Of a DNA stretch of 64,000 nucleotides, positions 55,320 through 64,000 are shown piece after piece. The stretch lies in assembly GCA_019454045.1 (NCBI GenBank), contig SKCR01023813.1:186001-250000 (forward strand), given 5' to 3'. This stretch comes from Zanthoxylum bungeanum (taxonomy: Eukaryota > Streptophyta > Magnoliopsida > Sapindales > Rutaceae). The notes under the pieces are model-generated. The model did not search any database and was not told the origin of the DNA. It saw only the letters and a list, made by a program, of their open reading frames with translations. Position 1 is the first letter of the stretch, and each line of letters starts with the position of its first letter. A program made the position numbers and the translations under genes.

Positions 55320-56215
55320 TGATAAAATATCAATTTGCTAGCACACCCAATTTGTAATATATTATAATTAATAATATCTATATACCAAAAAGATATTAAT
55401 TAAATAATATTATAAGTATCATGTAATTATTTATTTAACCATTAAATAAATATGGTTAATCTAATTAATCCCATTTGGTCCAATCAATATTTAATGTTAT
55501 CCAATAATATTTAATTATTTAATTGATAATTATAATATCAAATATTATTTATTATCAAATACATTTGGCTACTCAAGTGCTCAACGATTACATTTCATAT
55601 TGCGGGACTCTCTACGTTCTAATACGTTCTTCAAAATGTACGCAAATCGGCCATATCTTGATTGCGAAAAATACGAACGATCTTTCTAAACTATGTAATT
55701 CGTGATCGTTGCATATGTTTAAAAAATTCCTCCGTCGTAGGTTATCCGAGTCGTGCACATGAAACATAGAATATTCGTCAAGTTTCCAAAGTGCACATCT
55801 CATATTGTCGACAAGTCCACGATTCTTTATAACTAATTAGAACATTATTTCCGATGTATACACGATCAACCCTAGGTGATCGGCTTTGGCCAAAGTCCTT
55901 AGAATCGTGACTCAAAATGATAGATATCTAAACCTCTTAATGGTACACATTCAGGGCGACTGATCCTATCTTGATCCATACTTGATTAATGAATGCATCG
56001 ATCCACATTCAGCGAACATCCAGTGGTCAGACTATAAAAGATCTCTGACATGCATGTCATTTAAGGGTGGATGATCACACGCAAAATCAATGTTATCATC
56101 TAGTTACAGGATTAGATATGCTACTCGACTCTATGAAATCTCTCATTTACGGTAGCGTGCACTACTAACTATTAGGAATCATCCAGTGAGTCATTATTCA
56201 TCTTAACGAACGATG
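55320..56215 (-). mobile_element. Diverged LTR fragment related to the inner solo LTR
   Basis: gactgatcctatcttgatccatac, ccacattcagcgaacatcc, gctactcgactct and catccagtgagtcatt follow the same order as blocks at about 35280-35520 of the inner solo LTR (gacagatcctatcttgatacaca, ccaacgaacatgcgg, gctactcaacccg, cggtgagtcgtt). Similarity is partial, so this is an older member of the same LTR group. The LTR start is missing: the homology stops at the gypsy relic. Confidence 0.45.
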
Positions 56216-56221
56216 GCGTGC

Positions 56222-57377
56222 TCACAATTTCCACGTGCTATTGGTAAATGACCGATTAGATCCAGACCCTAAATTACGAATGGTCATGGGCTCACCATTG
56301 ACTGTAAATACGCAGGTGGAGCTTGCGGGACCTTGGCAAAACATTGATATTTGTCGCACTTTCTCACAAAGTCTAATGCGTCTTACTTCATCGAAGGCTA
56401 ATAGAAACCTTATCGTAGAGCCTTGTGGGCTAGAGAGAACCATATGACGTGATTTCCATAATGATCGGAGTGAATTTCGAGCAAGACTCGAGTAGCATCT
56501 TCTTCGTCGATATATCACAAGAGCGGGGTTACAAACCCTCTTTTGTAGAGTCTTCAATAAAAAATACAGTACCTCGCGGCTCGAGTATGGAGTCTATTTG
56601 CTTCATTCTTGTCTTGAGGGATTGTGTGTATCCATGTACTTTTTCAATTGTTGAAAGACATTCTTGCAATCATTCGTCCATTCAAACTTCTTGTTCCCCC
56701 ACAAGATATTAAAGAATATGACACAATTTTTCGTAGCCTGCGAGAAAAATCTACTCAGTGTCGCGACTTGGTTGTTGAAATGCTACACATCTTTGGGGGA
56801 ACGAGGTGATCGAATGCCTCTCAATGCTTATATTTTCTTGGGGTTGGCTTCAATGCCCCTATATTTTATCACAAAGCCTAATAATTTTCCTGAAGCCACC
56901 CCGAATTCACATTTGAGGGGGTTCAACTTCATCTGATATTCTCTCAAGACCTTGTTATCGACGAATTTTGTGGACTTCACTAGCATGTCTTCAGCATACA
57001 CCTCTATAGTCTTTCCAATCAGCTTCGTGAACATTCGGTTAACGAGTCACTGGTAAGTTGCTCCCGCGTTCTTCAATCTGAAGGGCATCACCTTGTAATA
57101 ATATAGCCATCGATTTGTAATGAATTAGGTGTGATCCTCGTTAGGCCCATATATTGGGATCTGATTGTACCCAGAGTATGAAGTTGAGTAGTTCATGGTC
57201 GGCTGTCACGTCTATCAGCTGATCAATCTTTGGTAGTTGGAAGCTATCTTTGGGGCATGCTTTGTTGATGTTGGTGAAGTCAACACATGTCTTTCATTTA
57301 TCATTCTTCTTTTTTACCAGAACTAGGTTGGCCAACCAGGTCGGGTAATATGCTTCCCTGATGAATTTATTGACTAA
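56222..57377 (-). pseudogene. Ty3/gypsy (Tat-like) reverse transcriptase and RNase H relic
   Basis: Reading right to left: FIREAYYPTWLANLVLVKK (57360-57300), CVDFTNINKACPKDSFQLPK (57285-57225), then the active-site region EVYAEDMLVKS (56990-56960), where the usual YVDD has become YAED. Next are YQMKLNPLKCEFGVASGKLLGF and RGIEANPKK (56940-56830), then a connection with FEWTNDC (near 56680). Further left is decayed sequence to 56222. Sequence and order match Tat/Ogre-type gypsy pol. Stops, a missing central RT part and the mutated box make it inactive. The upstream half of the RT is cut off exactly where the Athila-like LTR begins. Confidence 0.8.
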
Positions 57378-58136
57378 TGACCAACGTTTTCACACGCATA
57401 TAACGCAAGCGCACGTATCGTTCAAGTAGTATAAAAAGTATCGATCCCACGAGGACTTAATACCTAAGCTATTAATTAATGAAGCCAAATTTTTACAAGT
57501 ATCTAATGGATTGGTTGTTTGATTGGGTGGTGACTTTAAAACTTAAAACAAGTAAATAAAATTTCTTGAAAGTAGATTGAAGAAAATTCAAATTTATAAA
57601 ACTATCCAGGGTTATGAATCCTTCCAATATCTTATTAAAAGATGAAATAATTATTTTACGTTTGTGTAATATATTGGTTTATTAACTTGGAATACGAAAT
57701 TATGTAAAAGCCTCTTCCGATTGTCAAATACAAATACCCAGTATAACCCAATTAATCATATTCCTATGTTAACCAAGTTATCTGGCTCCAATTATGGCTA
57801 CCCCCGCCCGACAGGTATATTCCTATCCTGTAAAGAAATCTATTAAAGGGTTATCTATCCTCAAAGAAGATCGTGAGCTATTGAGTTTAAGGTCTTTAAC
57901 CTAAAATCTATTTTCCAAGTTCATTTTAAGTTTACCGAATCAATCTTATTAATGGCCAGTTAACAAGATGCATTAAGACTAAGGCTCAATAAATAAACCT
58001 TTATATTACCCAAACCGTAATTTAACCCCTTATAAACCGGTGATATTGGACTTCATCACAACCCCAGATAACTGGCTTAGTTACGACACATATTTACGGA
58101 TAGTAAAAACTTAAATAAAATAAAAGATATAAAGTA

Positions 58137-58265
58137 AAATGCTGAAATGTAAATGACGGAAAGTAAATGCTGAAATTAAAAACTGAAAATTAAATGCTGA
58201 AAAGTAAATGCTGAAAGTAAATTGCTGAAAAGTAAATGCTGAAAGTAAATTGCTGAAAAATAAAT
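58137..58265. repeat. gctgaaaagtaaat short tandem repeat
   Basis: About nine imperfect 12-15 bp units (gctgaaagtaaatt, gctgaaaagtaaat). A related shorter array is at 58624-58735. Confidence 0.8.
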
Positions 58266-58830
58266 AAAGTAAAAGTACAATAAAAGAAAATATTGAGGTA
58301 AAATGATCCACTTTTATTACTTCTATTTTAGATATCTCCCTTAATATAATATATTAATTTTGTATGATAATTACCAACCAGCCATATATGCGGTATCCAG
58401 ATTAAGTCAAATTAATAATTAATTATAAACCGACCAATCAGGGGTATCTGGTTTAGTCAGGTTAAAACCAATTTAAATAATTATCAACTGACTAATATGG
58501 CGGTATCCTCGTTAAGTCGGGTTTTAACTAGTTTATATATTATAATTAAGGGAGATTAATCTAAATATTAGTAATAAAAGTTTTACCTTTTACCCCAGCA
58601 ATGGAGAGTTACCTCCTCATTACTGAAAAGTAAAAACTGAAAATTAAAGAAAGAAAAGTAATGTGCGTAAAAGTAATTTGCGGAAAGTAAAAACTGAAAA
58701 GTAAAGAAAAGAAAGTGCGAAAGTTGAAATTAATTACTAAAAGCTGTAAATAAACAAACAAGATACAATCTTCTTAGTATTCTTAAGGAATTCCTTAAAA
58801 GAAAGTATGAATTTACCAATGAAATTGCTT

Positions 58831-58840
58831 GATATTTATA
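58831..58840 (-). promoter_or_regulatory. TATA box of the Athila-like LTR
   Basis: TATAAATATC on the - strand. Confidence 0.5.
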
Positions 58841-59430
58841 GGCAAAATTTTGCCTCCATCAAATCATCCACCAAATCCATTATTAATTACTCTACTAATT
58901 GCTCCACCAAATCCATTATTAATTGCTCCACTAATTGCTATCATGTTTGGTGGGAGTTTGACTATATTTATTTATTTATTTATTTGCTTTGAAAATGACT
59001 TTAATAATTACACATAAGACACTTTCGGATGTTTCATCAATTTTGGTCATGAAATATTCAGAATTCGAAATTATTTTATTCTTTAAAGTTTTAGATCATT
59101 TAGTCTTCCTTAATCTGGAACTTGAATCAGCTCAATCCGATATCGGAGTAAAAATTTATGCCCAAAATACGATAATTGCGCAAAACTAGAATTTCCGAAA
59201 CTGCACAGTTAGAACGCCCTTTCAAGTTTCCAATCTCCAAAATTAATATGTCATGTCCAATTTTTGCCCTTATTTGACCCACACTTCGTCATAAATGATT
59301 TTAATTGAGTCCCAATATTATTTTATCTCCAAATAAACTAAAACACATCAAAAAGTTCATCAAACTCGAGAAACTAAACAAAATATTAAGTAAAAGAGGC
59401 GGTAAATATTGATACATTTTCCACTCATCA

Positions 59431-59441
59431 CACCCCCAAAC
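59431..59441 (-). promoter_or_regulatory. Polypurine tract of the Athila-like element
   Basis: On the - strand GTTTGGGGGTG directly precedes the LTR start TGATGAG. This fixes the 3' boundary and orientation. Confidence 0.75.
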
Positions 59442-60089
59442 CGAACATTTTGCTAGTCCTCGAGCAAAACAACAAAATAAAATACAAGAAATAATTAAAA
59501 TTAAACTAAGCCACTTTCGTAGGGATCACGGTTGCATTTAGCGTATGCAACAAGCCTTTAAACCCCAAGGTGTCCCTAGTGGACGAGTTGTAGTCTCGTG
59601 AGGGCTTACAGCAACGATACCCACAAACGTTTGATAAAAGTAAAAAGATAGTAAAACTAATGCACAAAAAAAAGAGAAAATAGAATAAAGAAGTTAGTGA
59701 CTAAACATGTGGAACTTCTAATCCAAGTCAATAATTATTTTGTTTCTTTCTAAATTACCGAATAAGGAAATTCTCCGATTATATTTATCATTCTCCATAT
59801 ACACAGCCAATGAAATATTAATCAACTCATTTTGCCCACAATAGTCACAAGTGCAGTTGAAAAGAAAGTAATATTTTTGTCCTAAAGTTATATCAGAATT
59901 CACACATTTTTTTAAGCAATGAAATAAATTTTTTTTTGATTTTTATTCTTGATTTTTGATTGATTTTTTATTTATTATATACAATATCTTCCATCTATGT
60001 AACGAGCTTTGGGTCAGTGACTCCCAAACCAGTTGGCTTTAGGGTACTAGGTGTTAAGACACCCCTACAGACTTAATTACTCAGACTTC

Positions 60090-60148
<59 letters not shown>

Positions 60149-60770
60149 CATCTTTGATCCATGTAGTGAGCTTTGGGCCAGTGACTCCCAAACCAGTTGG
60201 TTTTAGGGTACTAGGTGTTAAAACACCCTTACAGACTTAATAACTCGGATCTAGGACGTTTTATATATATATATATATTATATATATATATTATATATAT
60301 ATATATATATATCCCATCGCTTTTTTAGGTGCTTCCTCCAATTAAACCATAGCACTGAATATTACAAACTTTTTAATTACAGCTCATGTCCGTATGTTAC
60401 CATGTATGTTGATAATACTTGTCAACTGAGCATATGCAGATTCATTTTAGTCAGTTTTATGGAGAATTCACAAATTAAATAATTTAAAATGAAATAAACA
60501 AAAATTAACTTGTTTCGAAATAGATTGAGATACGTCTCAGGAATGAAAATTCCTTACACAACTATCTCACACCAATTTCACATGATTAATCAAATAAAAA
60601 ACACAAAAATACAAAATATTTTTTTGGTTTTTGTAAGATTTTTCAAATTTTTTGGCTTTTTCAAAAATTTTAACTAAAAATAAAACAATAAAAACAAGAT
60701 ACAATTTAACTATTCTCATCTCCTAAACCTAAATGAGACATTGTCCCCAATGTCTTAAACAGTAGAAGAA
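59442..60770 (-). other. 3' untranslated internal region of the Athila-like element
   Basis: Contains blocks common upstream of the polypurine tract in this group (gtccctagtggacgagttgtag near 59572; cattgtccccaatgtctt near 60740). It also has a tandem duplication of about 164 bp (gagctttggg(t/c)cagtgactcccaaaccagttgg at 60004 and 60168), each copy followed by a long TA tract (60092-60140 and 60262-60312). No protein seen. Confidence 0.6.
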
Positions 60771-60822: not shown

Positions 60823-61476
60823 TTAAAGGTTAAGATCCAGATTTATCCGACGCCTCTTACCACGATCATTATCAGACCAGTTTATCTTGGAAAGAATGAG
60901 GTCAATTTGAGGTTCAAAGGCTAAGATTTGGTCAATTAAATCTGTGGCAGTTCTGGCAGTAAAAAGGAGTTCTTTTAGAGGCTTTGACACGAACCCATTT
61001 CTCTGGGCATCATCAAGAAACATACAAAGAAAATCATAAAATCCATCAACATTGTACATTCCAAGCGATTTCTGGTGTATGTTCAAGTTTGCCCAAGATA
61101 GTACTGTAAAAATTTCCTTCATCGCGCCCAAGCCTCCTGGCAAAGAAATAAGAACATCAGCACAGTTAATCATTTCTACTAGTCGTTCAGACATACCTTG
61201 CACAATTAGTTCTTCGTTGTTTGATGATCCAATAAGATTCACCTCTGCCAAGGGTTTTGGGGTGATTCCCAGAACTTGGATGCCTCCATCCTGTACAGCC
61301 TTTGAAACGATCCATATTAGTCCAAGATTGCCACCACCATATACTAAGTGCATATTCCTTGCAACAATGACTTGACCCAATTCCTGTGCTGCTGCTACAT
61401 ATTCTGGTTTAACACCAACACTAGTACCACAAAACACACAAATGTTTACAACTCGTCTTCTTGAAGTGGCTTCCAT
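60823..61476 (-). CDS. LOG-like: LOG-family protein, intronless, inside a retrotransposon
   Basis: 217 aa, normal family length. Family reaction: LOG enzymes release the active cytokinin base from cytokinin riboside 5'-monophosphate in the cytosol and nucleus. Seen here: nucleotide-binding start CVFCGTSVG (13-21), YGGGNLGL (46-53; family usually YGGGSxGL), an Arg at 98 in MSERLVEM equivalent to the conserved active-site Arg, and PGGLGAMKE (113-121) with the active-site Glu. The family motif is PGGxGTxxE, so Thr is Ala here; LMG after the glycine loop is LIW. The tail is basic (KRRR, 207-210) and ends LDLNL, an EAR-like LxLxL pattern. The ATG at 61476 follows a short A-rich leader with TATAAAT 55 bp upstream. 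Plant LOG genes normally have several introns; none is visible. It lies between pol and the 3' LTR on the pol strand. No poly-T at its 3' side, so a LINE-type retrocopy is not supported. Activity is unproven because of the substitutions. Confidence 0.88.
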   Translation of the reverse strand: MEATSRRRVVNICVFCGTSVGVKPEYVAAAQELGQVIVARNMHLVYGGGNLGLIWIVSKAVQDGGIQVLGITPKPLAEVNLIGSSNNEELIVQGMSERLVEMINCADVLISLPGGLGAMKEIFTVLSWANLNIHQKSLGMYNVDGFYDFLCMFLDDAQRNGFVSKPLKELLFTARTATDLIDQILAFEPQIDLILSKINWSDNDRGKRRRINLDLNL

Positions 61477-61540: not shown

Positions 61541-61940
61541 ACCTGAAAAGTGTGAGTAATAATAGCACAAGTATCTTCCAAATGACGATTAGTGGCAAAA
61601 TAGTAAATCATGAAAGGTCAAAAAGTAGCATGGATCATGTCGGAGAAAATAACAAAACAAATCACAATTATTAAGAAAAGACAAAGAGATATAATATTTA
61701 CAATAATGTAACGGCTTGAATGACGTCTATGCGTCAGGGACAAGCTTCCCATCCAATTTTCTTATAAATTGGCAAACAGGGTCTTTTAGAGTCAGATTCC
61801 CGAGACTTAACTGTTATCTTTCTTTTCGGAATTGTGTATGTATTTTGCGAATGGTTATATGAACATATCCACTGGGATGTGTCTCAAGAGTCGAAGATAT
61901 ATCATCTAAAGACTACTTACTCAAGCCAACCCTAATGAAT
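61541..61940. other. Spacer between the LOG-like gene and the Cys-containing frame
   Basis: About 400 bp, AT-rich with no recognised domain. It may be promoter DNA carried along with the LOG-like gene or element sequence. Confidence 0.4.
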
Positions 61941-62195
61941 TTAATTATTTTTTTTACGATTATCAGATACCATTCCTAAAGAACGACAACGAGTATTGCA
62001 ATTCCAGCGTGCACATTTGTAAAAAACACTCATTTGTTTAGCTCTATGTTTTTTTGCATAGGTGCTTCTTCCAAAACCAGGCAAATAAGAATTACAAGAA
62101 TCAAAATACTCACCTGCTAATCGGACCCGTGCTTCGATTACCCAACGAATATCATTAGGAATACCACGGATCGTCAGAAGTCTCATTCGTTCCAT
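61941..62195 (-). CDS. Small Cys-containing frame of unknown function
   Basis: 84 codons, opening MERMRLLTIRGIPNDIRW, with a Cys cluster FYKCARWNCNTRCRSLG (spacing C-x4-C-x3-C) and a basic end. The composition is more protein-like than surrounding chance frames. It lies between pol and the LOG-like gene on the same strand, so it may be part of the element's extra ORF or a second piece of captured host sequence. I do not recognise the family. Confidence 0.3.
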   Translation of the reverse strand: MERMRLLTIRGIPNDIRWVIEARVRLAGEYFDSCNSYLPGFGRSTYAKKHRAKQMSVFYKCARWNCNTRCRSLGMVSDNRKKNN

Positions 62196-62399
62196 GCGAG
62201 CTTTGTAGACCTTTATCAGAGAATTTTGAGGGAGAGAATGAAATTGCTTGTGAAGATTTACGAGAGCTTATTCCATCCTGAAATGCGTCTAACTTGCAAA
62301 ACTAAACACACAAAAATTAAAACACACCACATCATAATATATACACAAATTGCTTGGGTTGTCTCCCAGCTAGCGCTAAGTTTAACGTCGTCAGCTAGA

Positions 62400-64000
62400 C
62401 ATGATTGCTCGAACGTTATGCTGGATCTGAAAGTGTGACACTTTCTTTTTGTCGCTCAAATGATTCTCCCTAGTAGTGCTTGACACACTGGCTATTGACC
62501 TTGAATGTGTTGCTCGACTTGGGATTGTATATCTTAATAACTCAGTAGGGTAACACCTGAGTAATCACAAATGGACCTGACCATTTTGATTTCAGCTTTC
62601 CAGGAAAAAAGTTTCAACCTTGAATCGTATAACAACACTTGCTGCCCTGGTTCCAATTGTATGCACACTATTTTTCGGTCATGCCATTTCTTGGTCTTTT
62701 ATTTGTACAGTTTGGCATTCTCATAAGCCTGTAGGTGAAATTCCTCCAACTCATTGAGTTGATGAAGTCTTTTCTCTCCTGCAGCTTGTGGATCAAGATT
62801 CAACTTCTTCAGTGCCCAATACGCCTTTGGTTCAAGCTCAACTGGCAGATGACATGCTTTCCCGAACACCATTTGATATGGGGACATACCAATGGGTGTC
62901 TTGTTGATCCAACGGTTCTCTCCAAGATTCTTTTGATCTCCCTATTTGAAACTTCCACATGTCCATTTGACTGTGGATGATAGACAGTGGCAACCTTATG
63001 AGTAACTCCGTATTTGGATAGGAGTGAATCGAAGTATCTGTTGCAGAAATGTGAGCCACCGTCAGTGATAATCGCCCGAGGTGTCCCGAAGCGAGTGAAA
63101 ATATTCTTCTTAAGGAATTTGATCACCACTTTTGAATCATTGGACGGTAGTGCAATCGCTTCAACCCATTTGGAGACGTAGTCTACAGCAACCAGTATGT
63201 ACAGGTTTCCGAATGATGGAACAAATGGTCCCATAAAATCAATACCACATACATCAAATATCTCCACTTCCAGAATGTTTTGCAAATGTCCTTCATTTCT
63301 TATGGAAATATTTCCCGTTCTCTAACACTTGTCACATTGAAGAGCAAATAGATAAGCATCTTTAAAAAAAGTGGGCCAAAACAAACCTAATTGTAGGACT
63401 TTGGCTGTAGTTTTGTTTCCACTGAAATATCCACCGTAAAGTGATGAATGGCAATGCTGCAGAACATTATTGACCTCCTCCCGTGGAACACACCGTCTCA
63501 ATAATTGATCTGCACATCGTTTAAACAGGTACGAATCATCCCAGACATAATGTTTGACTTCTTTGAAGAATTTCTTCCGTTGTTGAGTTGTCCATTCCAA
63601 CGGCCATTTTCCTGATACTATGTAGTTGATATAGTCAGCATACCAAGGGACTTCCTGTTGTTTAATGGCAAAAAACTTTTCATCTGGAAACATTTCTTTG
63701 ATTGTTAGTTCTTTACCAGCTGTATCTCCATTCTCGAACCTTGATAAATGATCTGCCACTTGGTTTTCTGTCCCTTTCATGTCTCTAATCTCCACATCGA
63801 ATTCTTGCAGAAGAAGTATCCAACAGATCAATCTGGGCTTCGCATCTTTCTTCGCGATCAGATAATTGATTGCTGAACGATCTGTGTAGACCACCACCTT
63901 GGGACCCAACAGATAAGATCGAAATTTGTCAAAAGCGAACAAAACTGCAAGCAACTCATTTTCAGTGGTTGTGTAGTTGAGTTGAGCTTCATTCAGAGTT
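62400..64000 (-). pseudogene. RNase H and integrase of the Athila-like element, partly broken
   Basis: Right to left: RNase H part [41 protein letters not shown]; integrase zinc finger ([18 protein letters not shown] near 63330); core acidic residues in CGIDFMG (near 63245), TDGGSHF (near 63065) and GHVEVSN (near 62960). After the third, about 20 codons expected for the family are missing and the frame shifts near 62905. Integrase then resumes as [19 protein letters not shown] (62887-62830) to 62699, with further decayed C-terminal sequence to about 62400 (block ttgggttgtctcccagctagcgct near 62353). Family role: RNA removal and integration. RT and gag lie outside the window. The deletion probably inactivates the integrase of this copy. 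Confidence 0.85.

Follow-up and report, generated by a model that had tools for sequence, protein, structure and literature searches.

Why would a plant retrotransposon carry a gene of the cytokinin-activating LOG family, and what might the gene do there? The question is raised by a 64,000-nucleotide stretch of the Zanthoxylum bungeanum genome (contig SKCR01023813.1, positions 186,001 to 250,000; hereafter, the window), in which a 13.1-kb Athila-like Ty3/gypsy element, whose 5' long terminal repeat (LTR) lies beyond the window edge, holds a LOG-like frame between pol and the 3' LTR. We conclude that LOG is a standing gene of this element family, because the arrangement recurs, the frame is free of introns, the element LOGs form a clade of their own, and the ratio of nonsynonymous to synonymous divergence (dN/dS) falls to 0.13 in distant pairs. 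What the gene does is a more tentative matter. With a probability of roughly 40%, we favor the reading that the captured LOG has been kept as an accessory gene, often with a neighbor resembling viral nucleic-acid-binding proteins (NABP), and has been recast as a nuclear factor that recruits TOPLESS. The features that define the locus are the following.

60823..61476, minus strand: LOG-like accessory gene, open and intron-free, 217 codons, with the dN/dS of the family as a further basis
60826..60864, minus strand: C-terminal tail of the LOG protein, a basic patch and LDLNL (an LxLxL resembling the ethylene-responsive element binding factor-associated amphiphilic repression, or EAR, motif)
62809..63321, minus strand: integrase core stretch of pol (PF00665, 1.4e-17)
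63322..63999, minus strand: RNase H and integrase zinc-binding stretch of pol, running off the window (PF17917, 1.1e-18; PF17921, 3.9e-6)
57378..59430, minus strand: 3' LTR with TG...CA ends, matched by blastn to its 5' partner
C20219:254432-256478, in the neighboring contig stretch L062: 5' LTR, partner of the window's 3' LTR (blastn, 91.6% identity)

Pfam, NCBIfam, sequence comparison with the PDB and the predicted fold all place the window frame in the LOG family, and its protein is predicted to have the fold of LOG enzymes; in the NCBI cytokinin-LOG model it scores 88.6 bits, below the cut-off of 300. A profile scan of the window puts it on the pol strand, 3' of RNase H and integrase. We scored 150 LOG matches across the 3.96-Gb genome, drawn from 69,927 loose first-look seeds that are not a copy number. 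Each match covers 216-217 of the 217 residues and, the window itself apart, is 81–88% identical; full-length frames in other sources are 46–82% identical. The LTR pair encloses the frame, and in other copies LOG is surrounded by the same element sequence on both sides, which rules out an independent insertion of a host gene. A first-pass annotation of the window had proposed just this arrangement, an open, intron-free LOG frame of 217 codons in an Athila-like element with element sequence on either side, and had suggested looking for further copies with LOG in the same place; the LTR pair and the recurrent copies bear it out.

The host's own LOG genes tell us where the captured gene came from. 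A single 33-amino-acid exon gives 30 matches in the genome, of which we cut 25 as loci. Along the AtLOG3 stretch there are six places at which their exon matches are interrupted, and each locus has all or some of these breaks (L087 shows a single exon). In the element frame, no intron interrupts any of the six. The earlier annotation had proposed such a comparison of exon joins. We built a tree of 45 proteins from the window, 20 of 40 database relatives, six of 42 other copies from the same genome, 10 of the 25 host loci, two Arabidopsis LOGs (AtLOG3 and AtLOG8) and six outgroup rows. All 27 element rows fall into one clade (100/99), and a second clade (100/95) unites the 12 host rows, AtLOG3 and AtLOG8 among them; the outgroup rows are long, and their joining is weak (87/79). 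The tree supports a single old capture, with the reservation that rapid evolution could have displaced the element clade outward. The 'recent capture' first suggested for this locus is rejected by the two separate clades and by deep synonymous divergence (dS).

Selection on the family is visible in pairwise Nei-Gojobori comparisons of 43 copies: 30 from a first set, one of them of 216 codons, and 13 of 30 from a second set, from which we kept gapless 217-codon matches only and dropped 17. LOG dN/dS is 1.02 at dS<0.05, then 0.49, 0.36, 0.32, 0.22, 0.21 and 0.23, and finally 0.13 at dS>1. Such a trend is expected if the active lineage is constrained and its inserted copies then decay neutrally. 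The NABP-like neighbor behaves alike, going from 1.25 (six pairs) down to 0.30 among 24 gapless copies of the 46 with a match. A LOG found through NABP rather than through LOG itself (L090) gives 0.12–0.16 against L042, L036 and L010, and 0.30–0.38 against L038, L059 and L002. Ascertainment as the sole cause of the low ratios is thereby rejected, since the trend is the same for NABP when loci are selected through LOG and for LOG in the one locus selected through NABP. The element architecture and selection on the family are well supported. The window copy itself is probably a decaying one with its frame still open, because its dN/dS is 0.37–0.56 against its twelve nearest copies by dS and its loop reads PGGLGAMKE, with Thr119Ala and Glu121Lys (CgLOG numbering). 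Arg99 is retained in it. The earlier remark that the open frame hints at selection thus holds for the family; as evidence, the openness of this one copy is weak, given that loop and given that 21 of the 43 copies are free of stops and 22 carry one.

The second accessory gene lies just upstream of LOG and is broken in the window.

61730..62276, minus strand: NABP-like zinc-finger protein gene, split into two pieces that are out of register with each other, the matched pieces containing three stops

Within it, the frame 61941-62267 (minus strand) matches carlavirus NABP profiles weakly, below the cut-offs of PF05515 and PF01623 (E 0.024 and 0.007). Of 36 candidates in the database, 35 proteins are relatives at E<=10, about 182 amino acids long at full length. 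Among seven of these scanned, five exceed the cut-offs of both families, one that of PF01623 alone, and one neither. A profile search yields 694 proteins at E<=1, and the names among the 120 matches listed of these include Xanthoceras, Populus, Acer, Rhamnella and Citrus. Of 29 other top LOG loci, 28 have NABP-like sequence, whole or partial, 5' of LOG and in the same orientation. Conversely, from 150 NABP matches (scored from 44,855 loose first-look seeds, again not a copy number) we cut the stretches 3' of three, chosen regardless of LOG, and all three contain LOG, two of them with shifted frames. The gene sits between pol and LOG in a retrotransposon, and not in the place it has in flexivirus genomes. 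In one LOG copy that lacks it (L018), integrase C-terminal sequence lies nearer to LOG, as after a deletion. An NABP-like database protein (P0209) has an EAR-like end of its own, NLSLSL, perhaps through in-frame fusion to the following gene. The protein P0121 has no PDB sequence match at E<=1.

One set of changes in the LOG protein is in its pocket. In CgLOG, the residues proposed to act in catalysis are Arg99 and Glu122, adenine is held by Met96, Lys100 and Glu121, and the prenyl site is described as Met96, His97, Lys100, Glu125 and Trp129 (PMC4979012). Lys100 is replaced in all 83 element-type sequences that we compared: by leucine, isoleucine or methionine in the 40 database relatives, and likewise lost from the 43 copies of the same genome. 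The relatives keep His97 in one case and Glu125 in none (one has a gap there); the 43 copies keep neither. By contrast, the 25 host loci have Lys100 and His97 throughout, Arg99 in 24, and Glu125 also in 24, the remaining one being unread at that position. Because Lys100, His97 and Glu125 are lost from the element LOGs and kept in host loci, we regard the base pocket of the predicted element protein as rebuilt. The PGGxGTxxE loop is largely preserved among the relatives (Thr119 in 35 of 40), and Arg99 is kept in 37 of the 43 copies, the others having five stops and one glutamine.

The other change is at the C-terminus. LxLxL is known as an EAR repression motif, and taking LxLxL or DLNxxP as its definition, the window copy, which ends in LDLNL, has one. 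A strict LxLxL stands at the very end of 19 of the 40 relatives, and of 28 once near-variants are included and two lists united; the other 12, judged by eye, stop short or end otherwise. NLDLNL ends 37 of the 43 copies. Over the last eight codons the ratio of nonsynonymous to synonymous differences per site (pN/pS) is 0.13–0.26, compared with 0.27–0.41 in the core. The ten host tails obtained by a motif search in the 25 loci end in -ISR or -IAR, and the basic and LxLxL tail is absent from them.

Together, the pocket change and the repressor-like tail point to a job other than hormone production, and the following course of events would account for them. An ancestor of the Athila-like lineage would have acquired a plant LOG coding sequence minus its introns, most simply through reverse transcription of a spliced mRNA, and would have retained it between pol and the 3' LTR as a permanent accessory gene, which in many copies has a second one, that for the NABP-like zinc-finger protein, next to it. 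The LOG-derived protein would have kept the nucleotide-binding fold and phosphate loop and, because its base and prenyl pocket has been rebuilt, would no longer be a standard cytokinin-activating enzyme. Its basic patch and LxLxL tail would bring it to the nucleus and let it bind TOPLESS-type co-repressors, and so blunt or redirect host transcription in the element's favor. The NABP-like protein would bind nucleic acid and perhaps counter silencing, as related viral proteins do: viral cysteine-rich proteins of this kind are described as silencing suppressors, and p12 of Chrysanthemum virus B also as a transcription factor (PMC12172455). A single clade, the many copies, the constant place, constraint on both genes, the lack of introns and the neutral-like decay in young pairs are supported; the nuclear, co-repressor-binding role of the LOG protein is one that we infer from its motifs, and the nucleic-acid-binding role of its neighbor is suggested by analogy. 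That the two genes form an anti-host module, in which a virus-type zinc-finger protein, possibly anti-silencing, would act with a nuclear, TOPLESS-recruiting nucleotide-binding protein derived from LOG, is an extension we consider doubtful. If true, it would mean that an LTR element makes its own effector out of a hormone enzyme.

The simplest rival, that the frame is an ordinary host LOG gene or retrogene flanked by element fragments by chance, can be set aside almost entirely: the flanks recur as element sequence, the LTR pair encloses the frame, and the host LOG genes have introns. That the frame is a functionless passenger, spread by hitch-hiking, would fit the ratio near 1 in young pairs, the stops in half of the copies (22 of 43) and the loss of Thr119 and Glu121 from the window copy; we nonetheless judge it very improbable, because pairs with dS >0.2 show a dN/dS of 0.13–0.23, the NABP-found L090 is similarly constrained, and full-length frames persist at 46–82% identity in other sources. 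A functional protein could still have phosphoribohydrolase activity, releasing cytokinin and so favoring division or meristem fate in the cells that express the element. Here the pocket stands in the way. Lys100 and Glu125 are kept in none of the relatives, Lys100 and His97 in none of the 43 copies yet in all host loci read, and Arg99 itself has become glutamine in 10 of the 40 relatives, seven of which reach the tail. In the type II enzyme CgLOGII, moreover, alanine at Arg155, Lys156, Thr175 or Glu178 is reported to end activity (PMC5379747), Lys156 being the match of Lys100. We therefore think continued cytokinin activation improbable, and the label 'cytokinin-activating', given to this gene from the window alone, is unsupported.

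An enzyme or sensor for some other nucleotide, in the manner of SLOG proteins, is a different matter; it might clear or sense a modified nucleotide that is harmful to reverse transcription or acts as a defense signal, with the LxLxL tail serving merely for stability or location. We hold this to be unlikely as well, since it leaves unexplained both the constraint on the tail, equal to that of the core, and the loss of the arginine in some relatives. Several observations do weigh against the nuclear-factor reading that we prefer. Most relatives retain the catalytic residues (Arg99 in 30 and Glu122 in 38 of 40), so the protein may have some activity, perhaps toward a different nucleotide. A motif as short as LxLxL can occur by chance; tail residues 204–217 are disordered in the structure model, with a predicted local distance difference test score (pLDDT) <50, and one subclade ends in LDIDLNR, which is not a strict LxLxL. 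We take the 40 database relatives to be element-borne, an assumption based on their kinship and tail and on the fact that they have no introns. The NABP structure model is poor (pLDDT 52.6), too poor for a fold search. Finally, no NABP match is present in 14 of 60 LOG loci, 13 of them in the second set; one of the 14 begins at a contig edge (L048), two carry short remnants (L055 and L057), and ten, including L057, have another upstream region in common. In this sublineage, which lacks a clear NABP, the region has an acidic open frame of at least 221–247 amino acids, seen at L038:3-746 and L047:205-870, for which Pfam gives no match above cut-off. Since 14 of the 60 loci lack a match and ten of these share another upstream region, NABP is not obligatory in the LOG-bearing family, and accessory genes may have been swapped. 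On the favorable side, a Citrus x changshan-huyou gene model (P0258, WN944_024084) comprises an NABP-like part, the N-terminal part of a LOG and an LxLxL end; although annotated as a host gene, it looks like the NABP-like gene and partial LOG of such an element. A scan of it at E<=0.001 returned the LOG-type domain only, which also counts among the points on this side.

The acquisition of LOG by an LTR element is already known. Two Athila-like elements with extra open reading frames similar to LOGL4 were reportedly described by Steinbauerova et al. in 2011. A YgdH/LOG domain is reported in consensus elements of Citrus sinensis and C. clementina and, with a filter off, of Populus trichocarpa, a result given as in line with that earlier report (Alvarado-Marchena et al. 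2022, PMC9289625). The first-pass statement that no described element carries such a gene is thereby overtaken. Like ours, these are plant Ty3/gypsy LTR elements with a LOG-type domain, and very probably they belong to the same lineage; they differ in that the parts of PMC9289625 that deal with them describe neither an upstream NABP, the loss of the pocket or the basic and LxLxL tail, nor dN/dS or a clade test. A review of additional open reading frames (PMC7264820) mentions no YgdH, lonely guy, lysine decarboxylase or cytokinin, and in the literature searched, which takes in few subscription journals, we found no account of the lysine loss, the dN/dS trend, the C-terminal LxLxL or the NABP-like neighbor. 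Within that literature, the description of the accessory gene set with its recast LOG is new.

Comparison with other systems locates the case further. Element LOGs share the predicted fold and Glu122 with type I plant LOG enzymes (AtLOG3, 2a33; AtLOG8, 1ydh), and most element relatives share the PGGxGTxxE loop and Arg99 with them; unlike these enzymes, they have Lys100, His97 and Glu125 replaced, bear a basic and LxLxL tail, lack introns and are carried by an element. The NABP-like proteins resemble the nucleic-acid-binding cysteine-rich proteins of carlaviruses and betaflexiviruses in exceeding both PF01623 and PF05515 cut-offs in five of seven relatives, but they are encoded in a retrotransposon and, at about 182 amino acids, have further conserved parts. 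With EAR repressors and TOPLESS-binding effectors (Jsi1, PMC8126959; HaRxL21, PMC7446885) the element protein has LxLxL in common, here beside a basic patch; it is, however, a LOG-fold protein of a transposable element, and its TOPLESS binding is putative. Orchid Gypsy elements with an AlkB-type N6-methyladenosine demethylase (PMC9289625) are likewise plant Ty3/gypsy elements in which a host enzyme gene has become fixed as an extra open reading frame; the domain is another, and its activity was shown, whereas our case is argued from sequence. The extra genes of plant LTR elements are described as mostly without known domains (PMC9289625). Here a captured hormone-enzyme gene is constrained in an abundant family, its pocket rebuilt and a repressor-like tail added, often beside a relative of viral proteins of the silencing-suppressor type, and the case offers concrete and cheap tests of what extra genes do in plant retrotransposons. 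It also cautions against taking frames of this kind for host genes, as in the Citrus model that appears to fuse both.

How the two genes might be expressed is suggested by the sequence before each start.

61542..61549, minus strand: candidate 3' splice acceptor upstream of the LOG start, CTTTTCAGG region, a YTTTYAGG motif
just before 62276, minus strand: splice-acceptor-like site before the NABP start

In the 160 nucleotides before the LOG start, 51 of 61 copies have a YTTTYAGG site, as against 1.2% of mononucleotide shuffles, and the site falls inside a conserved patch. In 27 of 38 copies, TTTCAGG or TTTCAAG stands immediately before the NABP start. Such acceptor-like sites would fit spliced subgenomic messages; common descent explains part of their recurrence.

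The remaining features concern the element as a whole.

59431..59440, minus strand: polypurine tract TTTGGGGGTG (element strand), adjoining the 3' LTR, by sequence reading
59969..60249, minus strand: two-copy tandem duplication in the 3' untranslated part of the element, with a 164-bp step, 85% alike and split by an AT microsatellite
60739..60752, minus strand: CATTGGGGACAATG block, by sequence reading

CATTGRGGACAATG is present in 39 of 59 other LOG loci. Between the two LTRs we count 80 transitions and 54 transversions over 2027 compared sites, a Kimura two-parameter distance of 0.0695 (LTRs alone). At substitution rates of 1.3e-8 or 7e-9 per site and year, the insertion would be about 2.7 or 5.0 million years old. 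The 5-bp outer flanks of the pair read ACTAA and ACCAA, a target duplication of about 5 bp with one mismatch, as in Athila elements. Gag and reverse transcriptase pieces follow further on, in L062, giving the order PF03732, PF00078, PF17917, PF17921 and PF00665, in pieces, that is, the gag, reverse transcriptase, RNase H, integrase order of Athila. The primer site, 6 bp beyond the 5' LTR, agrees at 16 of 18 positions with what we take to be the end of tRNA-Asp, again an Athila trait. Soybean Diaspora is described as having a tRNA-Asp site 5 bp past its LTR, as in the Calypso group (PMC1142308), and archaeal-type RNase H as a mark of Tat (PMC6317226); such an RNase H had no match in the element pieces scanned, which cover part of the internal region. 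We class the element as Athila-like.

Rfam gave 0 matches in the window at gathering scores, and two frames scanned in the left flank of the 3' LTR had no Pfam match. To the eye, this flank (window ~56200-57377) looks like the pol of another retroelement, suggesting a nested insertion. Among viral contigs, the NABP alignment found no relative in 26 candidate stretches, and the LOG alignment found one in 15: an IMG/VR contig of 37,984 bases encodes, at L001:1337-1660, a LOG relative that is 37% identical.
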